From assembly GCA_025928545.1 (NCBI GenBank), contig JAICJH010000011.1, positions 1-64,000 of the forward strand: a DNA stretch of 64,000 nt, read 5' to 3'. A model generated the notes under the pieces. That model was not told where the DNA came from. It saw only the letters and a list, made by a program, of their open reading frames with translations, and made no database searches. This document shows positions 7,995 to 14,239 of the stretch, one piece after another. Source of the DNA: Bryobacteraceae bacterium (GTDB lineage Bacteria > Acidobacteriota > Terriglobia > Bryobacterales > Bryobacteraceae). Made by a program: the position numbers and the translations under genes. Numbering within the stretch: position 1 is the stretch's first letter; each line of letters begins with the position of its first letter.

Positions 7995-8444
7995 ATGGAA
8001 AAGGTATTTCATTTCGATGCGCCGCGCGAGAAGTATAGCTGCGATGCCGCTGTCGTCTGGTGTTTCGACAACCGGTTCCAGCAGGGTCTCGCGAAATACC
8101 TCAAGCGGCTTGGAATTCTGAATACCGATCCGATTAAGATCGCAGGCGGAGCGAAATCGTTGGTTTCGCCGGAGCATGAGACGGATCGCGAGTTCGTGCT
8201 GGAGCAGATCCGAAAATCGATCCGGCTCCATGGTACGAGCCGGGTCATTCTGATGCTGCATTCCGACTGTGGCGCGTATGGCGGATTAGCCGGTGGTTTT
8301 CAGGGCGATGCGAAAGCGGAGGCAGGCCATCATGAGGCCGAATTGAGACGCGCGGCGGAATTCCTGAAGGGCGAACTGCCCGGGCTGGAAGTGCAGGCGT
8401 ATTTTGTCGACTTTGAGGGCGTTTGGGCGGTGAACCCCGCTTAG
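7995..8444 (+). CDS. Short beta-carbonic-anhydrase-like protein
   Basis: 149 residues, cytosolic (no signal). It contains the two signature motifs of beta-class carbonic anhydrases: CFDNR (Cys23, Asp25, Arg27) and HSDC (His89, Cys92), giving the Cys-His-Cys zinc set and the Asp-Arg dyad. The usual family length is nearer 200 residues, so the C-terminal helices are reduced. The expected reaction is interconversion of CO2 and bicarbonate, but compact relatives are often not demonstrated to be active. It is followed after 13 bases by the CPXCG gene and then by the cyclase operon, all on the plus strand. Confidence 0.75.
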
Positions 8445-8457
8445 CGGGCGGAGCACG

Positions 8458-8631
8458 ATGGAGCACTTTTTCACTTGCCCGTACTGTAGTGAGCGCATTT
8501 CAATGGTGCTGGATATGTCGGTTGGCGGACAGGTTTATGTGGAAGACTGCGAGGTCTGTTGCCGCCCGATTGAGGTGCGTTACAGCGTCGTAAACGATCG
8601 GATTCGCGATTTCGAAGCTGCTGCCATGTAA
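8458..8631 (+). CDS. CPXCG-type cysteine-rich small protein
   Basis: 57 residues. The start ATG at 8458 has GGCGGAG about 6 bases upstream. The protein begins [16 protein letters not shown] and has a second cysteine cluster ([12 protein letters not shown]), so a CPYC pair and a CxxCC group can form one zinc ribbon. This matches the Cys_rich_CPXG family of small bacterial proteins, whose role is not established; zinc-ribbon nucleic-acid or protein binding is likely. It sits 13 bases after the carbonic-anhydrase-like gene and 54 bases before the cyclase. Confidence 0.85.
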
Positions 8632-8685: not shown

Positions 8686-10557
8686 ATGACGCAGCGTCTC
8701 AAGAAGAATCTGATCATCTCCGCAATCGCAGTCGCTGCGGCTCTTGCCACCATGGGCCTCAGCAAGTTCCGCTTTTTCGAACTGCTGAAGCTGAAGGCGC
8801 AGGATGTGCATTTCGTTTTACGGGGCACGCTGCCGGTCAAGGACATTGTCTTAATCGGTATCGACAACGAGACGCTTTCGAACCCGGACTTTCTGGATCC
8901 ATCGCTGTTCTGGCATAAACACTATGCCGATGCCATCGGTGGAGCGGCGGAAGGTGGAGCGAAAGCCTTCGTCCTCGATGTCACGTTCGCGATTCCGGTT
9001 GAGCCCTATGAAAAAGATCCCAACCCGCATATGGACAGCGATCTCGCCAGCACGTTTGTCAGCACGCTGCCGATCATGCCCGTCGTGTGCGCCTTTGTTC
9101 CGGAAGCCATGGGGGCGCAACGGGAAGGCCTCGGCGCGGTTCCCCTGAATATGATCGCCGGCGCCATGGGGATGTCCGCCTACGCTAATCTGACGGACGA
9201 TCCGGATGCTTTTGTTCGTACCCAAGAGCTGATTGAAGCGCCGGATCCAAAAGACCAGTCGCGACCGCTGACCCGCAGCATGGCCTTGCGGGCGGCGGAG
9301 AAGTTTCTGGGCGTCGAAGCGAATTTCAGGAATGGCGAGCTTTATCTCGGAGACCGGCGCATCCCGGCGAACCGAGATCGCCAACTCACCATTAATTATG
9401 CCGGACCACCCGGAACCGTTCCCCGCATTCCGCTGTATAAATTCAACGAAGCCGCGAAGAAGCACGATATCGCGACGCTCGAAAAATGGGTGAAAGGCAA
9501 AGTGGTCCTGCTGGGTCCGGATAACAGCGGTGACCGTCACAACACGCCTTTCTATACTGCTTTCGCCGGCGAGAAATACACAACGCCAGGGGTGGAAGTG
9601 CATGCCAACACTTTGCGGACTCTGCTGACGGGCGACTATCTGCAGCCAGTGCCGGACTGGGCGCGGGTGCTTGGGCTGCTTCTCTCCGCCGGAATCAGCG
9701 TGGCGATGGCGGCGTCTTTCAAGCCGTCACAAACGGCCGCGTGGGCACTGATCGCGCTGGTCCTGGGTCTGGTTTCGACACACGTGCTGTTCAGGGCCGG
9801 CTGGCTGCTATCGACATCTGAAGTGACAATTGCCTACACGATTGCGTTGCTCGGCGGTATGATCTTCCGCTTCGCGACGGCCGAAAAGAAGAGCAGCTTC
9901 TTCCGCGGCGCGGTGGCATTGTTTGTCGGCAAGCAGGTCGCGAGTTCGCTCGAACAATCCGAGAAGATCGCGCTGACGGGTAAACGGCAGACGGTCACGA
10001 TCCTGTTCACGGATATCCGCGGGTTCACGGCGTTTTGCGAATCCAAGGATCCGGCAGTCGTTGTCGATCTGCTCAACACTTATATGCAGGTGATGGTATC
10101 GGCCATCGTGAAGTATCACGGCCACGTCAACAAATTCATCGGCGACGGTATTCTGGCGGTGTTTTCGGATGACGACGAGGGTGCACAGCCCGGCGATCAC
10201 GCGTACCGTTCGATGGCCTGCGCGACTGAGATGGTGACAGCGGATGCCGCCGGGTTCAAGACCGGCGCGGGCATCCATTCGGGCGAAGTGGTTATCGGCA
10301 ACGTGGGATCGTCCGACAAGATGGAGTTTACAGTTCTGGGAAATACGGTGAATCTCGCCTCGCGACTGGAAAGCCTGAATAAGGAGCAGAAAACAAAACT
10401 GCTGCTCAGTCAGGAAACGCTTGAAATGAGCGGGGGGAGAATTGACACATCGTATGTGGGCGAAGTGCCGGTCAGAGGGAAAACGGAGCCGATGAAGTTA
10501 TATACGGTCAAATCGCTCGTGGAACCGAAGCCCCAAACCCAGGAGGCGCATGCATGA
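8686..10557 (+). CDS. CHASE2-domain class III adenylate cyclase
   Basis: 623 residues. A first membrane helix (about 8-25) is followed by a large extracytoplasmic CHASE2 sensor (about 30-325), two to three more membrane helices (about 330-405), and a cytosolic class III nucleotide cyclase domain (about 430-600). The metal-binding aspartates are Asp443 in FTDIRGF and Asp487 in GDG, and the transition-state block GNTVNLASRLES is intact. The Lys in NKFIGDG, where guanylate cyclases have Glu, favours ATP and cAMP as product; the second specificity position is Glu (MEFTVLG) rather than the usual Asp. The gene overlaps the next gene by 8 bases, so the two are translationally coupled. Confidence 0.95.
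   Translation: MTQRLKKNLIISAIAVAAALATMGLSKFRFFELLKLKAQDVHFVLRGTLPVKDIVLIGIDNETLSNPDFLDPSLFWHKHYADAIGGAAEGGAKAFVLDVTFAIPVEPYEKDPNPHMDSDLASTFVSTLPIMPVVCAFVPEAMGAQREGLGAVPLNMIAGAMGMSAYANLTDDPDAFVRTQELIEAPDPKDQSRPLTRSMALRAAEKFLGVEANFRNGELYLGDRRIPANRDRQLTINYAGPPGTVPRIPLYKFNEAAKKHDIATLEKWVKGKVVLLGPDNSGDRHNTPFYTAFAGEKYTTPGVEVHANTLRTLLTGDYLQPVPDWARVLGLLLSAGISVAMAASFKPSQTAAWALIALVLGLVSTHVLFRAGWLLSTSEVTIAYTIALLGGMIFRFATAEKKSSFFRGAVALFVGKQVASSLEQSEKIALTGKRQTVTILFTDIRGFTAFCESKDPAVVVDLLNTYMQVMVSAIVKYHGHVNKFIGDGILAVFSDDDEGAQPGDHAYRSMACATEMVTADAAGFKTGAGIHSGEVVIGNVGSSDKMEFTVLGNTVNLASRLESLNKEQKTKLLLSQETLEMSGGRIDTSYVGEVPVRGKTEPMKLYTVKSLVEPKPQTQEAHA
10541..10546 (+). promoter_or_regulatory. Strong ribosome binding site for the caspase-TPR gene, inside the cyclase 3' end
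   Basis: AGGAGG lies 3 bases before the ATG at 10550 and within the last codons of the cyclase. It supports the overlapping start at 10550 over the ATG at 10589. Confidence 0.6.
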
Positions 10558-13408
10558 TCGACGCTCACAAGAAGTCGGACTCAAAGGTATGAGGATCAGG
10601 GGCTTAGCGGCCTGGTTGTTCATCCCTGTACTGACAGTTTCAGCGGCAAATCCGCCTGCTCCGGCGGGGGGACAACCCGCCAAAGAGGAGCCCGTCGGCT
10701 TGTTATTGAGCGCCACGGGAAGCAAGGTTCTGCGCGCGAGCGCCGAAACTCCGCTTGCTGCCCGCGCCGGCGATGTCCTTTTTTCCGGCGACGAGCTGAA
10801 GACGGAAACCGGAGCTGCCAGCTTTCTTTATTGCCCTGCGAAGACATCGGAATCCATCGATCAGGGCGGCGATCTGGTTTTCGATGCGAAGCAAATCAAG
10901 GTAAAGGCCGGCAAGATCGCAATGCCGAAACCGGTGAACTCGTGCTTCCTGCCTCAGGTTGTGCGCGTCGCCGTGGCAAGTCAGCAGCATTACGGAGTCA
11001 GCATGACTCGCGGGCTGACCAAACCCGAGGGCGACGTCCTGGCTGTGAGTGCCTTGCCCGCCAATGTTCAGGCAGACCTGGCTCCCTTTGAAGCGGTTCT
11101 GCGCACGGAGCCCGATAACGTCGGCGCGCTCGTGAACGAAGCTGCTGTTTACGATCAGAACAAACTCGAAGCCAACGCGCTGGCAACGTATCGCAAGATC
11201 GCGTTGCAGTGGAAAGACGCGGTGTGGGTGCGCGGACGCATTTTCGAGCTGGAGGAATCGCTGGCCACGGCAGCCGCGCTGAAAGCGGCCGAGATCGCGC
11301 CGGACGCAAAGACCTACGCTTTGCTGATCGGCGTTTCCAAATATCAGAAACTCCCGCAGGATCTTTGGCTGAAATACGCGGATGCGGACGCGAAGAGCTT
11401 CAGCGAGCAGCTGGCCAGTCTGCGAGGCGGTGGCGTGCCGCCGGAGAACATGGTTGTGCTGACGAATGAGCAGGCGACCACTGCCGCCGTTCGCAATGCC
11501 TTTCAGTCCTTTCTGAAGACACGGGCGGGTTCCAAAGACACGGTCTTTGTGATGGTCGCGGGCCACGGCACGGTGGACAGCCGCGGCGCATTCATTCTGA
11601 CTTACGACAGCGATCCGGAAGATCTTGCCACCACAGCTCTTCCGATGGCGGAACTACAGGCGCTGGTCGATGATGAGTTGAGCAAAGTCGGACGGGTTGT
11701 TTTTCTAGCCGACGTCTGCCGCGCGGCGACGATCGGCAGTCTGAAGACCGATGCTCTGGGCAGCGCGGTTGAAAAACTCGGTGAAGCGCCGGGTGAAATG
11801 CTGGGCCTGATGTCGGCGCGACCCAAGGAAGTTGCCGTAGAAGGCGCGGATTTCGGAGGCGGTCACGGTGCGTTCAGCGATTCCGTGCTCAAGGCTCTGG
11901 GCGGCGCCGCGGACAGTAACAAGAATCAATCGGTGGATGCCGGTGAGTTGATCGATTACGTCCGTACCAACGTGCCGAAGACGACCAACAATAAACAGCA
12001 TCCGCGCGACTTCGGTAATCTGGCCAACGATACGAAGCTGTCGGATCTATCGAAGTCGCCGGTTCCGATGACTCGGCTGAAGACCTTCTACGACTCCCGC
12101 AGCGGAGAGCCGCTTTTGGTGGCGCAGGCCGCCGGAACGATTCAGATTTCACCGCAGGCGCAGGCGGATATCGACGCTTTTCAGGCGGCTATTCGCGCCC
12201 GCAACATTCTGCCCGATGCTGCCGGCAGCGCGTGGAGTTACGTGGATCGCATGCGCGCGGAACTCAGCCCGGAGCGGATGTTCCTCCAGGAGAATGCCCT
12301 GCGAATCGCCCTTGAAGACGCCGCGCAGCAGGTGCTGCTGAAATATCTCTCGGGAGGCGCCACGCCGCAGGCCAAGGTCGATTTCGACAATGGCGCGAAG
12401 TATATGGAGGCTGCTGTCCGCCTCACTCCGGAATCGCTTTATCTCCAGGCGCGGGATTCTTTCTTTTCCGGGCGCTCGCTGGTATTTGACAAGCAGTACG
12501 CGCAGGCATCGAACCTGCTGGAACAATCGGTGCGTACCGATCCGGCCGAGGCCTATGGCTACAACGCTCTCGGTATTTCCTATCTGGAGCAGGCGCGCTA
12601 TCAGGATGCCGTGCCGGCATTTCGCGACGCCACGCGCCGCGCGCCGAACTGGTCGTATCCGTTGCTGGGCCTTGCCCTGGCCTATGAGCAATCGGGCAAC
12701 AATCTCGCGGCGGTCCGAACCTATCAACAGGCGATTAAGCAGACGCCGCAGTACGGCTTCTGGCCGTACAATCTCGGCATGCTTTATCAGAAGATGAACC
12801 GGCGCAGCGACGCTGAGGCGTCTTACCGGCAGGCGATGGTATTGATGCCGAACTCCGGCATGCCGCTGAACGCGCTTGGATCTCTGAAAGCCGCGCAAGG
12901 GAAGACTACCGAAGCGGAGAAATTCTATCGGGACGCGCTGCTGAAAGATCCAACCCTGATTGAAGCCCGCCACAATCTGGGTGTCCTGCTCGCCAACATC
13001 AAAACGCGGCAGCCCGAAGCGATCGCTCTGTGGCAGCAGAATCTCCAGACGAACCCGGATTATCTGGTTTCGAGAATCAGCCTGGCAGAATTGCTGGCGC
13101 AGCGCGGAGAAAATGCGGGAGCGATTGAGCAGTACCGCCTGATTGTGAATGCCAAGCCGGAGTTTGTCGCGGCAAGGGTTGCGCTGGGTGAGCTTTATGT
13201 GAAGTCCAGCCAGGCTCAGGCGGGCGTGGATGAGCTTCGCGCAGCATCCCGGCTCGATGCCGAGAATTCCTCCATCTTTGAGCGGATTGGCGATGTGGAA
13301 AAATCGCTCAATCATGTTCAGGAAGCGCGCGATGCGTACGCAACGGCCCTGAAGCTTGCCGCCGAAAAACCGGATCAGAAGAGGGTTCGTACTAAGATGG
13401 CTTTCTAG
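10550..13408 (+). CDS. Secreted or membrane-anchored FecR-like, caspase-fold (C14) and TPR protein
   Basis: 952 residues. A hydrophobic export segment at about 15-33 follows a polar N terminus; the start at 10550 is backed by AGGAGG, with 10589 as an alternative. Residues about 45-125 resemble the FecR-type beta domain. Residues about 253-500 are a caspase/metacaspase-like p20 domain: the strand YALLIGVSKY, catalytic His339 in VAGHG and Cys390 in LADVCRA form the expected dyad. Residues about 600-945 contain around eight TPR units, e.g. AYGYNALGISYLEQARYQDA. C14 proteases cleave after basic or acidic residues; the substrate is unknown. It lies between a cyclase and an MBL hydrolase in one tight operon. 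Confidence 0.9.
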   Translation: MHDRRSQEVGLKGMRIRGLAAWLFIPVLTVSAANPPAPAGGQPAKEEPVGLLLSATGSKVLRASAETPLAARAGDVLFSGDELKTETGAASFLYCPAKTSESIDQGGDLVFDAKQIKVKAGKIAMPKPVNSCFLPQVVRVAVASQQHYGVSMTRGLTKPEGDVLAVSALPANVQADLAPFEAVLRTEPDNVGALVNEAAVYDQNKLEANALATYRKIALQWKDAVWVRGRIFELEESLATAAALKAAEIAPDAKTYALLIGVSKYQKLPQDLWLKYADADAKSFSEQLASLRGGGVPPENMVVLTNEQATTAAVRNAFQSFLKTRAGSKDTVFVMVAGHGTVDSRGAFILTYDSDPEDLATTALPMAELQALVDDELSKVGRVVFLADVCRAATIGSLKTDALGSAVEKLGEAPGEMLGLMSARPKEVAVEGADFGGGHGAFSDSVLKALGGAADSNKNQSVDAGELIDYVRTNVPKTTNNKQHPRDFGNLANDTKLSDLSKSPVPMTRLKTFYDSRSGEPLLVAQAAGTIQISPQAQADIDAFQAAIRARNILPDAAGSAWSYVDRMRAELSPERMFLQENALRIALEDAAQQVLLKYLSGGATPQAKVDFDNGAKYMEAAVRLTPESLYLQARDSFFSGRSLVFDKQYAQASNLLEQSVRTDPAEAYGYNALGISYLEQARYQDAVPAFRDATRRAPNWSYPLLGLALAYEQSGNNLAAVRTYQQAIKQTPQYGFWPYNLGMLYQKMNRRSDAEASYRQAMVLMPNSGMPLNALGSLKAAQGKTTEAEKFYRDALLKDPTLIEARHNLGVLLANIKTRQPEAIALWQQNLQTNPDYLVSRISLAELLAQRGENAGAIEQYRLIVNAKPEFVAARVALGELYVKSSQAQAGVDELRAASRLDAENSSIFERIGDVEKSLNHVQEARDAYATALKLAAEKPDQKRVRTKMAF

Positions 13409-14239
13409 ATGCCCGACGCACAGATGCATGTCCGATTCTGGGGGGTCCGTGGTTCCACGCCGACACCGCTGGCTGAAAATCTCAAGTTCGGAGGCAATAC
13501 GTCATGCGTTGAGGTCTGCACGCCTTCGGGCGATTGCCTCATCTTCGATGCGGGTTCCGGCATACGCGCTCTTGGCAACAGGCTGCTGCAGGATGCGGCC
13601 GGTGAGCCCATTCAGGCCAATATTTTCCTCACTCATTTTCACTGGGACCATATTCAGGGTCTGCCGTTCTTCGCCCCGATCTATGGCGCGAAAAATGAAA
13701 TCACCTTTCACGGCGGGCGCACCAGAAGCTTGCAGGAAACCCTGGAAGGCCAGATGGCCCAGCCTTATTTCCCCGTGGATTTCGCGCAGGTAGCAGCGAA
13801 GCGAAATTTTCGCGAGATGGAATCGGACGCGGTTCTTGAGATCGGCGGGGCGTCCATCCGTACGTTCAGTCTGAATCATCCGCAGGGCGCGACGGGATAC
13901 CGGGTGGAATGCGGAAAGTCGGTTGTCGTTTATGCGACAGACTTTGAGCACGGTAATGCGGAACTGGACGCGCTGATGCTTGAACATGCGCAGGATGCGG
14001 ACATTCTAATCTGCGATACGCAGTATACGCCCAAGGAATACGACACGCATCGCAATTGGGGTCACAGCACGTGGCTTCATGCGGCGGCCGTAGCGCAAAA
14101 GGCAGGGGCTAAGCAGCTTGTGCTTTTCCACCACGATCCGACGCACGACGACCACACGATGGCCAGGATACAGACCGAAGCACGTGGCGAGTTCCGCAAT
14201 ACGGCCGCGGCGTGGGAAGGCCTGACGGCTTCGCTGTAG
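13409..14239 (+). CDS. Metallo-beta-lactamase-fold hydrolase, possible cyclic-nucleotide phosphodiesterase
   Basis: 276 residues, starting on the base after the caspase gene stop. It opens with FWGVRGSTPTP and FGGNTSCVEV, a PhnP/RNase Z-like N terminus, and has the zinc motif THFHWDH (His76, His78, Asp80, His81), then a late NHPQGATGYR, an Asp ligand in YATDFEH, and LVLFHHDPTHDD. There is no signal peptide. Relatives in this branch hydrolyse phosphodiesters, including cyclic phosphates. Its place after a cyclase makes cAMP breakdown an attractive but unproven role. A hairpin and the convergent tRNA nucleotidyltransferase gene follow. Confidence 0.9.
   Translation: MPDAQMHVRFWGVRGSTPTPLAENLKFGGNTSCVEVCTPSGDCLIFDAGSGIRALGNRLLQDAAGEPIQANIFLTHFHWDHIQGLPFFAPIYGAKNEITFHGGRTRSLQETLEGQMAQPYFPVDFAQVAAKRNFREMESDAVLEIGGASIRTFSLNHPQGATGYRVECGKSVVVYATDFEHGNAELDALMLEHAQDADILICDTQYTPKEYDTHRNWGHSTWLHAAAVAQKAGAKQLVLFHHDPTHDDHTMARIQTEARGEFRNTAAAWEGLTASL

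Follow-up and report, generated by a model that had tools for sequence, protein, structure and literature searches.

A conserved CHASE2 cyclase, caspase-TPR and metallo-beta-lactamase-fold gene set in Bryobacteraceae as a possible trans-envelope cyclic-nucleotide signalling module

The window analysed here is a 64,000-nucleotide stretch of a Bryobacteraceae genome (positions 1 to 64,000 of contig JAICJH010000011.1), and it carries three genes for a class III nucleotidyl cyclase with a CHASE2 sensor, a protein combining an N-terminal beta domain, a Peptidase C14 (caspase) domain and tetratricopeptide repeats (TPR), and a hydrolase of the metallo-beta-lactamase (MBL) fold. It is nearly certain that they form one gene unit, and they are presumably co-transcribed. 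The gene order, the domains, the conserved active sites and the recurrence of gene pairs were established directly. We propose, with a probability of roughly 0.55, that the three genes make up one trans-envelope cyclic-nucleotide signalling module, in which the exported caspase-TPR protein would be a periplasmic scaffold and protease, probably placed between an outer-membrane barrel and the CHASE2 sensor. A stimulus, possibly through caspase cleavage, would change the state of CHASE2, the cytoplasmic cyclase would then make cyclic AMP (cAMP) or cyclic GMP (cGMP), and the MBL protein from the same operon would hydrolyse this messenger, which would keep the background low and end the signal (reset). 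The readers of the messenger would be encoded elsewhere; the window's genome contains 8 domains that bind cyclic nucleotide monophosphates (cNMP).

An earlier note on this DNA had set a neighbourhood survey beforehand as the test of the three-gene set, and in this survey the genes did recur together across genomes. Within the genus, 19 genomes were compared (the window's own and 18 others), and all three genes lay on one contig in 14 of them, including one (G003) whose contig end cuts the cyclase gene. The caspase-MBL junction was present in 18/19 genomes and the cyclase-caspase junction in 16/19. As for the genomes outside the 14, three (G011, G013 and G017) had all three genes on broken contigs, no orthologous cyclase was found in G016 and no MBL in G005; the MBL gene was present at L060 and L064, which are on the same contigs as L125 and L105. 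To describe the surroundings, we compared two genes per side in 10 genus loci together with the four flank genes of the window, and 28 of the 44 flank proteins, including the window's four, had no match among the others, with four members in the largest shared group. Thus, the trio was retained in the genus while its surroundings mostly differed.

Beyond the 19 genus genomes the genes recurred in pairs, but all three directly joined were seen only in this genus, so the idea of a three-gene system holds in part. For the cyclase and caspase-TPR pair, relatives of the aligned beta domain and caspase were sought in one genome per species, and the best 80 of 112 were analysed. Profiles placed beta domain and caspase within one protein in 46 of these 80 loci, and a CHASE2 cyclase was directly upstream of, or fused to, the caspase-TPR gene in 28 of the 46 (13 genus loci and 15 from other genomes than those of the genus set), of which 26 were found by script and two (L111 and L119) were added after an overextended caspase open reading frame (ORF) start had hidden their cyclase. 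Another 14 had no cyclase directly before the caspase-TPR gene, each with more than 1.5 kb of upstream sequence, and the remaining four (L103, L104, L126 and L156) were cut by contig ends; upstream of L104 there was just a cyclase fragment cut off by the contig end, and this locus was left out of the 28. None of these other 15 cyclase-caspase loci had an MBL gene directly downstream of the caspase-TPR gene, and at L112 and L117 an MBL gene was on the opposite strand, 3.4 kb and 1.6 kb off. The two families were of different frequency in 297 genomes drawn evenly from the phylum: the caspase family (E 1e-40) was in 10 and the MBL family (E 1e-50) in 50.

Several variants of the pair were seen. 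At L112 (5154-10733) the cyclase and the beta-domain/caspase/TPR protein are in one 1859-codon open frame, in which the former signal peptide is mid-protein and might be a membrane span; this fusion is on a single contig and possibly a sequencing error, and it was kept out of the main evidence. A caspase-free beta-domain gene (231 aa) follows right after a CHASE2 cyclase at L067. In a genome of the same class (L068, 5295-11222), a caspase-TPR gene without beta domain is divergent to a CHASE2 cyclase that is followed by two beta-domain genes, and this set corresponds to the parts of the window's fused caspase protein in unfused form. L107, L109 and L110 have a small second caspase as third operon gene, four bases 3' of the caspase-TPR gene. 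This small caspase (about 270-330 aa, without TPR) is a paralogue of the operon caspase and was also found at 13 loci elsewhere (L130-L141 and L143), with a further example at G000:C67:46773-47540.

The domain search identified CHASE2 (E 2.5e-29) and Guanylate_cyc (3.8e-24) in the first protein, Peptidase_C14 (2.2e-15) and TPRs in the second, and Lactamase_B_2 (2.8e-21) in the third, and alignments confirmed that the motifs of all three, earlier judged by eye, are intact. The cyclase was above the cut-offs of both PF05226 and PF00211 and had its catalytic residues, and D443, D487, N556 and R560, which we take to be those residues, were unchanged in 16/16 aligned rows. CHASE2 is flanked by hydrophobic segments (residues 8-26 and roughly 328-398; a few more are inside domains), as would be expected for a membrane sensor. 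In the window the cyclase reads GNTVN, with Asn in place of the Asp (GDTVN) of 11/16 rows; GNTVN was in 5/16 rows, namely the window, L057, L060, L062 and L064. This split was not decisive for cAMP versus cGMP or a pyrimidine cNMP as the product.

The MBL protein is most likely a cyclic-nucleotide phosphodiesterase, judging by its motif and predicted fold. Its sequence THFHWDH matches [T/S]HXHXDH, the signature of the atypical class-II phosphodiesterases (PMC9293780), the protein belongs to PF12706, and H76, H78, D80, H81, H157 and D178 were unchanged in 19/19 aligned rows. The predicted structure (predicted local distance difference test, pLDDT, 84) matched the fold of RNase Z with E 9e-18 and that of Bacillus subtilis YhfI, the second protein by fold, with E 1e-16; aligned by structure, the MBL protein and YhfI were about 20% identical. 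YhfI strongly favours cAMP and cGMP over cCMP and cUMP (PMC9117128). Against the NCBIfam model of cyclic nucleotide-degrading phosphodiesterase (NF041851) the MBL protein scored 59.5 bits, below the cut-off of 400. Hydropathy found no hydrophobic segment in it, and both the MBL protein and the cyclase domain would be expected in the cytoplasm.

The second recurrent pair, cyclase and MBL, was also seen without caspase in other families, which supports their association. Apart from the genus loci, we examined 77 places of the MBL family, 76 of them distinct (L147 and L184 refer to a single MBL), and in 8/76 a class III cyclase was directly beside the MBL gene on the same strand, upstream of it in 7 of these 8. 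The cyclase was upstream with gaps of -4 to 13 at L197, L198, L200, L202, L211 and L222, an FHA-cyclase was upstream with a gap of 24 at L120, and at L205 the cyclase was downstream, with an overlap that stems from an overextended ORF start. The profile found no directly adjacent cyclase at the other 68 places, but it was trained on CHASE2 cyclases of the window's kind and other cyclases may escape it. As background, flanks totalling 678 kb that lay apart from the MBL and caspase anchors had 3 cyclases, two of which were search anchors themselves. When 89 MBL domains were placed in a tree, those of the genus operon formed one clade (100/100), and the other cyclase-adjacent rows were at three separate positions, where well-supported branches force at least 3 changes (gains or losses).

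Some MBL relatives are joined to further domains. One (L081) has a receiver domain, and another (L087, 4186-6396) has MBL, receiver-like (under cut-off), cNMP-binding and GGDEF domains in one protein, a set that might link removal of cyclic mononucleotides with synthesis of cyclic di-GMP. The C-terminal extensions of L072, L076 and L077 looked PilZ-like by eye, but the one tested (L072) had no Pfam match and PilZ is not claimed. The MBL protein could also be an RNase Z-like enzyme or another phosphodiesterase that acts on something other than the product of the cyclase, with the adjacency incidental. We consider this unlikely, since same-strand cyclase adjacency was found at three MBL-tree positions besides the genus clade, the atypical class-II motif is present, and one relative has the domain company of L087. 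That the cyclase makes and the MBL protein removes one and the same messenger is a reading we hold with good confidence.

The caspase-TPR protein was above the cut-off of PF00656, and its His-Cys dyad (H339 and C390) was unchanged in 36/36 aligned rows. A hydrophobic segment just before the beta domain was found by hydropathy in 44 of 47 beta-domain caspase proteins, the window's included, by a criterion (15-residue mean of at least 1.5) whose limit was chosen after the values were seen; the other three had values of 1.37-1.45. The cysteine pair of the beta domain was conserved in 18/18 rows of the domain alignment, and in a larger set C95 was invariant and C132 was kept in at least 90%. These sequence features make export across the inner membrane probable, which would separate the caspase, outside, from the messenger, inside. 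The earlier note had taken the caspase as the output, switched on by the messenger for cell death or proteolysis. Gene order and conservation would suit this idea, cell death is a role discussed for bacterial caspase homologues, and a Trichodesmium caspase-CHASE2 protein is predicted to have a cytoplasmic caspase (PMC3501461). However, a signal-peptide-like start in 44/47 and the conserved cysteine pair do not go well with a cyclase domain and an MBL protein in the cytoplasm, the domain search found no cyclic-nucleotide-binding domain in the caspase-TPR protein, and at 14 caspase-TPR loci no cyclase gene directly precedes the caspase-TPR gene. The caspase as messenger output is therefore distinctly unlikely, and we lean slightly towards the caspase being a periplasmic part of the input side.

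The beta domain had been called FecR-like, a name that did not survive closer comparison: it had no match to Pfam FecR (PF04773), and an hhalign comparison with four FecR domains from the window's own genome, a thin reference, gave a probability of 0.2 (percent scale). No solved relatives of the beta-domain and caspase part were found at E 0.01. Foldseek with the whole protein gave, among the 50 matches listed, what look like TPR or other helical repeats and was silent on the beta and caspase domains, and the model of EACC1-associated caspases (NF047832) gave 75.8 bits, below its curated cut-off of 140.

The candidate partner on the outer side is a barrel protein of about 1030-1190 aa with CarboxypepD_reg, plug and OMP beta-barrel domains (three tested). 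Of 36 loci with room on both sides, 21 had a barrel orthologue no more than 1.5 kb from the caspase gene or the cyclase gene (14/24 with a cyclase and 7/12 without). This count is partly circular, since the model was built from seven of these 21; leaving them out gives 14/29. The 7/12 also speak against the caspase as output. The window's genome has one strong barrel match (1373 bits, 59% identity) on another contig, C106, and no caspase or cyclase profile match was found near that barrel in the 9.5 kb read; for the window the barrel is thus a putative partner. Like the barrel partnership, the enzyme activities, the compartments and the placing of the caspase before the cyclase are inferred. 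The chain in full, with a barrel cue leading to proteolysis by the periplasmic caspase-TPR protein, which turns the CHASE2 cyclase on or off and has a dedicated MBL phosphodiesterase as reset, is tentative and stays short of probable.

The same barrel data allow the caspase to serve mainly the barrel, in maturation or clearance of surface proteins, with the cyclase operon merely reporting that step. The seven barrels beside cyclase-less caspase-TPR loci would fit this (three of the seven trained the model), as would 4/13 small-caspase loci (L131, L135, L136 and L137) with a close barrel relative directly 3' of the small caspase. But the 15 loci from beyond the genus genomes retain the cyclase with the caspase-TPR gene and L112 fuses the two, and we regard such a service role as rather unlikely, and prefer the caspase as part of the signalling input.

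A wider view of CHASE2 neighbourhoods was consistent with this placing. CHASE2 was found at 41 places in 31/119 genomes of the phylum, and at least 9 of the 41 had a same-strand Pfam FecR match no more than about 3.5 kb away (paired by eye); a FecR profile trained mainly on those Pfam matches added 5 among 37 CHASE2 places. The window was the only one of the 41 places where a beta-domain caspase protein was observed. In four other Acidobacteriota loci (L250, L199, L245 and L246) the partner protein likewise has an N-terminal beta-type domain followed by TPR, and it is directly beside the CHASE2 cyclase in L245, L246 and L250. In L250 (the same place as L187) the FecR-TPR gene overlaps the cyclase gene by four bases, and in L245 FecR, TPR and a TonB barrel are in one protein. 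A gene of the same MBL family adjoins the partner gene in L250 and L199, and the L246 contig has one at a greater distance (L195). Unlike the window, these loci have a true FecR and no caspase, and the MBL gene is divergent from the FecR-TPR gene and not the last gene; the L199 contig ends before any cyclase is visible, and L245 has no MBL in the 8.1 kb read. The window's beta-domain/caspase/TPR gene thus occupies the same kind of place as the FecR-TPR genes. A 724-aa protein with a Stig1 match is encoded between the MBL and FecR genes at L194 (2670-4844), and L189 and L190 have a similar start.

The layout of the locus is given in Table 1. ORFs and domains bore out the order cyclase, caspase-TPR, MBL, head to tail and all on the forward strand, and also the zero-base junction between caspase-TPR and MBL genes, which was -1 to +7 in 15 relatives. 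The 8-base overlap of cyclase and caspase-TPR genes depends on the start: it exists if the first ATG (10550) is used, but the second in-frame ATG (10589), immediately 5' of the signal-peptide-like segment, would leave a 31-base gap, and from the sequence this second ATG appears to suit the segment better. By a first-start rule, 11 of 13 relatives with both genes had a 4-base overlap, and two had gaps of 30 and 36. A scan of the locus for promoters and terminators gave counts no different from shuffles. Just 5' of the cyclase gene is a gene for a 57-aa CPXCG cysteine-rich protein (8458-8631, forward strand; PF14255, E 6e-18), preceded by a putative carbonic anhydrase gene (7995-8444; PF20393) whose protein had no counterpart among the genus flanks compared.

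Table 1 Features of the three-gene locus (positions in the window)
Feature	Position	Strand	Basis
CHASE2 class III nucleotidyl cyclase, 623 aa	8686..10557	+	ORF, domain search, alignment
CHASE2 sensor domain, expected periplasmic	8737..9693	+	PF05226
Class III cyclase catalytic domain, expected cytoplasmic	9985..10512	+	PF00211
AGGAGG, ribosome-binding-site-like, within the end of the cyclase gene	10541..10546	+	sequence reading
Beta-domain/caspase/TPR protein, probably exported; 952 aa from first ATG, 939 aa from ATG 10589	10550..13408	+	
Signal-peptide-like segment	10589..10651	+	hydropathy only
N-terminal beta domain with conserved C95 and C132; not Pfam FecR	10679..10999	+	
Peptidase_C14 caspase domain; H339 at 11564-11566, C390 at 11717-11719	11312..12004	+	
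TPR superhelix	12347..13384	+	
MBL-fold hydrolase, probable atypical class-II cyclic-nucleotide phosphodiesterase, 276 aa	13409..14239	+	
THFHWDH metal-binding motif, MBL residues 75-81	13631..13651	+	

A cyclase in such a set could also belong to an anti-phage system of the Pycsar kind, and the cyclase domain did score on the PycC models of PADLOC (best E 4.6e-25). This is extremely improbable, as PADLOC, run on four proteins, found neither a match for the MBL protein nor a Pycsar effector, a CHASE2 sensor is present, and the set, whole or in part, was in 19/19 genus genomes. The PADLOC matches were to generic cyclase and caspase models only, and the idea of a defence system was discarded.

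Many bacterial caspases have no assigned role, and cell death is a frequent guess for them. The caspase described here has recurrent partners, namely a CHASE2 cyclase, an outer-membrane barrel and, in the genus, a phosphodiesterase-like MBL protein, and its compartment is probably the wrong one for an executioner. If the full chain from barrel cue to reset holds true, this caspase would act in signalling, as a protease ahead of a second messenger, and not as an executioner. The data further suggest an off-switch role of this MBL family for some CHASE2 cyclases of Acidobacteriota, and they hint at what may lie between receptors in the outer membrane and CHASE2 sensors.

Among known systems, the MBL protein resembles Rv1339, YhfI and CpdA, atypical class-II phosphodiesterases, in [T/S]HXHXDH, PF12706 and predicted fold (PMC9293780, PMC9117128), and differs from them in its distant sequence (about one fifth identical to YhfI, as given above) and in sitting in a cyclase operon. 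CHASE2 cyclases of Sinorhizobium meliloti raise cAMP on a plant protein sensed through the outer-membrane barrel NsrA (PMC13001267). The system of CyaD1, CyaD2 and CyaK with NsrA and Clr is alike in that CHASE2 cyclases respond through an outer-membrane barrel, with one FecR and one TPR protein among the Clr targets, and unlike in that the accessible parts of the papers mention no caspase or MBL (PMC13001267, PMC5498481). A LysM-FecR protein gene is in an operon with a CHASE2 histidine kinase (PMC5192318); there too a gene for an exported FecR-type partner adjoins the CHASE2 sensor, but the place of cyclase and phosphodiesterase is taken by a histidine kinase and a response regulator. For metacaspases, Lactamase_B is among the commonest enzymes in their operons and a caspase-CHASE2 protein (Trichodesmium) is listed, so the caspase is linked to CHASE2 or to Lactamase_B genes there as well; that is a single CHASE2 fusion, and the accessible text mentions no cyclase with it and does not name the window's gene set (PMC3501461).

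The earlier note knew of no description of the three-gene set. Our literature search, with most subscription-journal papers outside its scope, found no paper joining CHASE2, caspase and adenylate cyclase, and in the accessible literature on CHASE2 with caspase, or on CHASE2, adenylate cyclase and metallo-beta-lactamase, the set was not found named. But a kindred cluster of CHASE2 adenylate cyclase, phosphodiesterase, FecR outer-membrane protein and TPR protein is published for Campylobacterota (PMC9239204), so the novelty is partial. Both there and in the window a CHASE2 cyclase gene adjoins genes for a phosphodiesterase (here by motif and fold only) and a TPR protein. The Campylobacterota cluster has four genes, and the accessible part of PMC9239204 mentions no caspase and gives no phosphodiesterase class; the window's set has a caspase between the beta domain and the TPRs and is without a FecR-domain outer-membrane protein, its beta domain not being Pfam FecR and the barrel not adjacent. 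The new part of the window's set is thus the caspase, and the set is otherwise akin to the clusters of CHASE2 cyclase, phosphodiesterase, FecR and TPR proteins.

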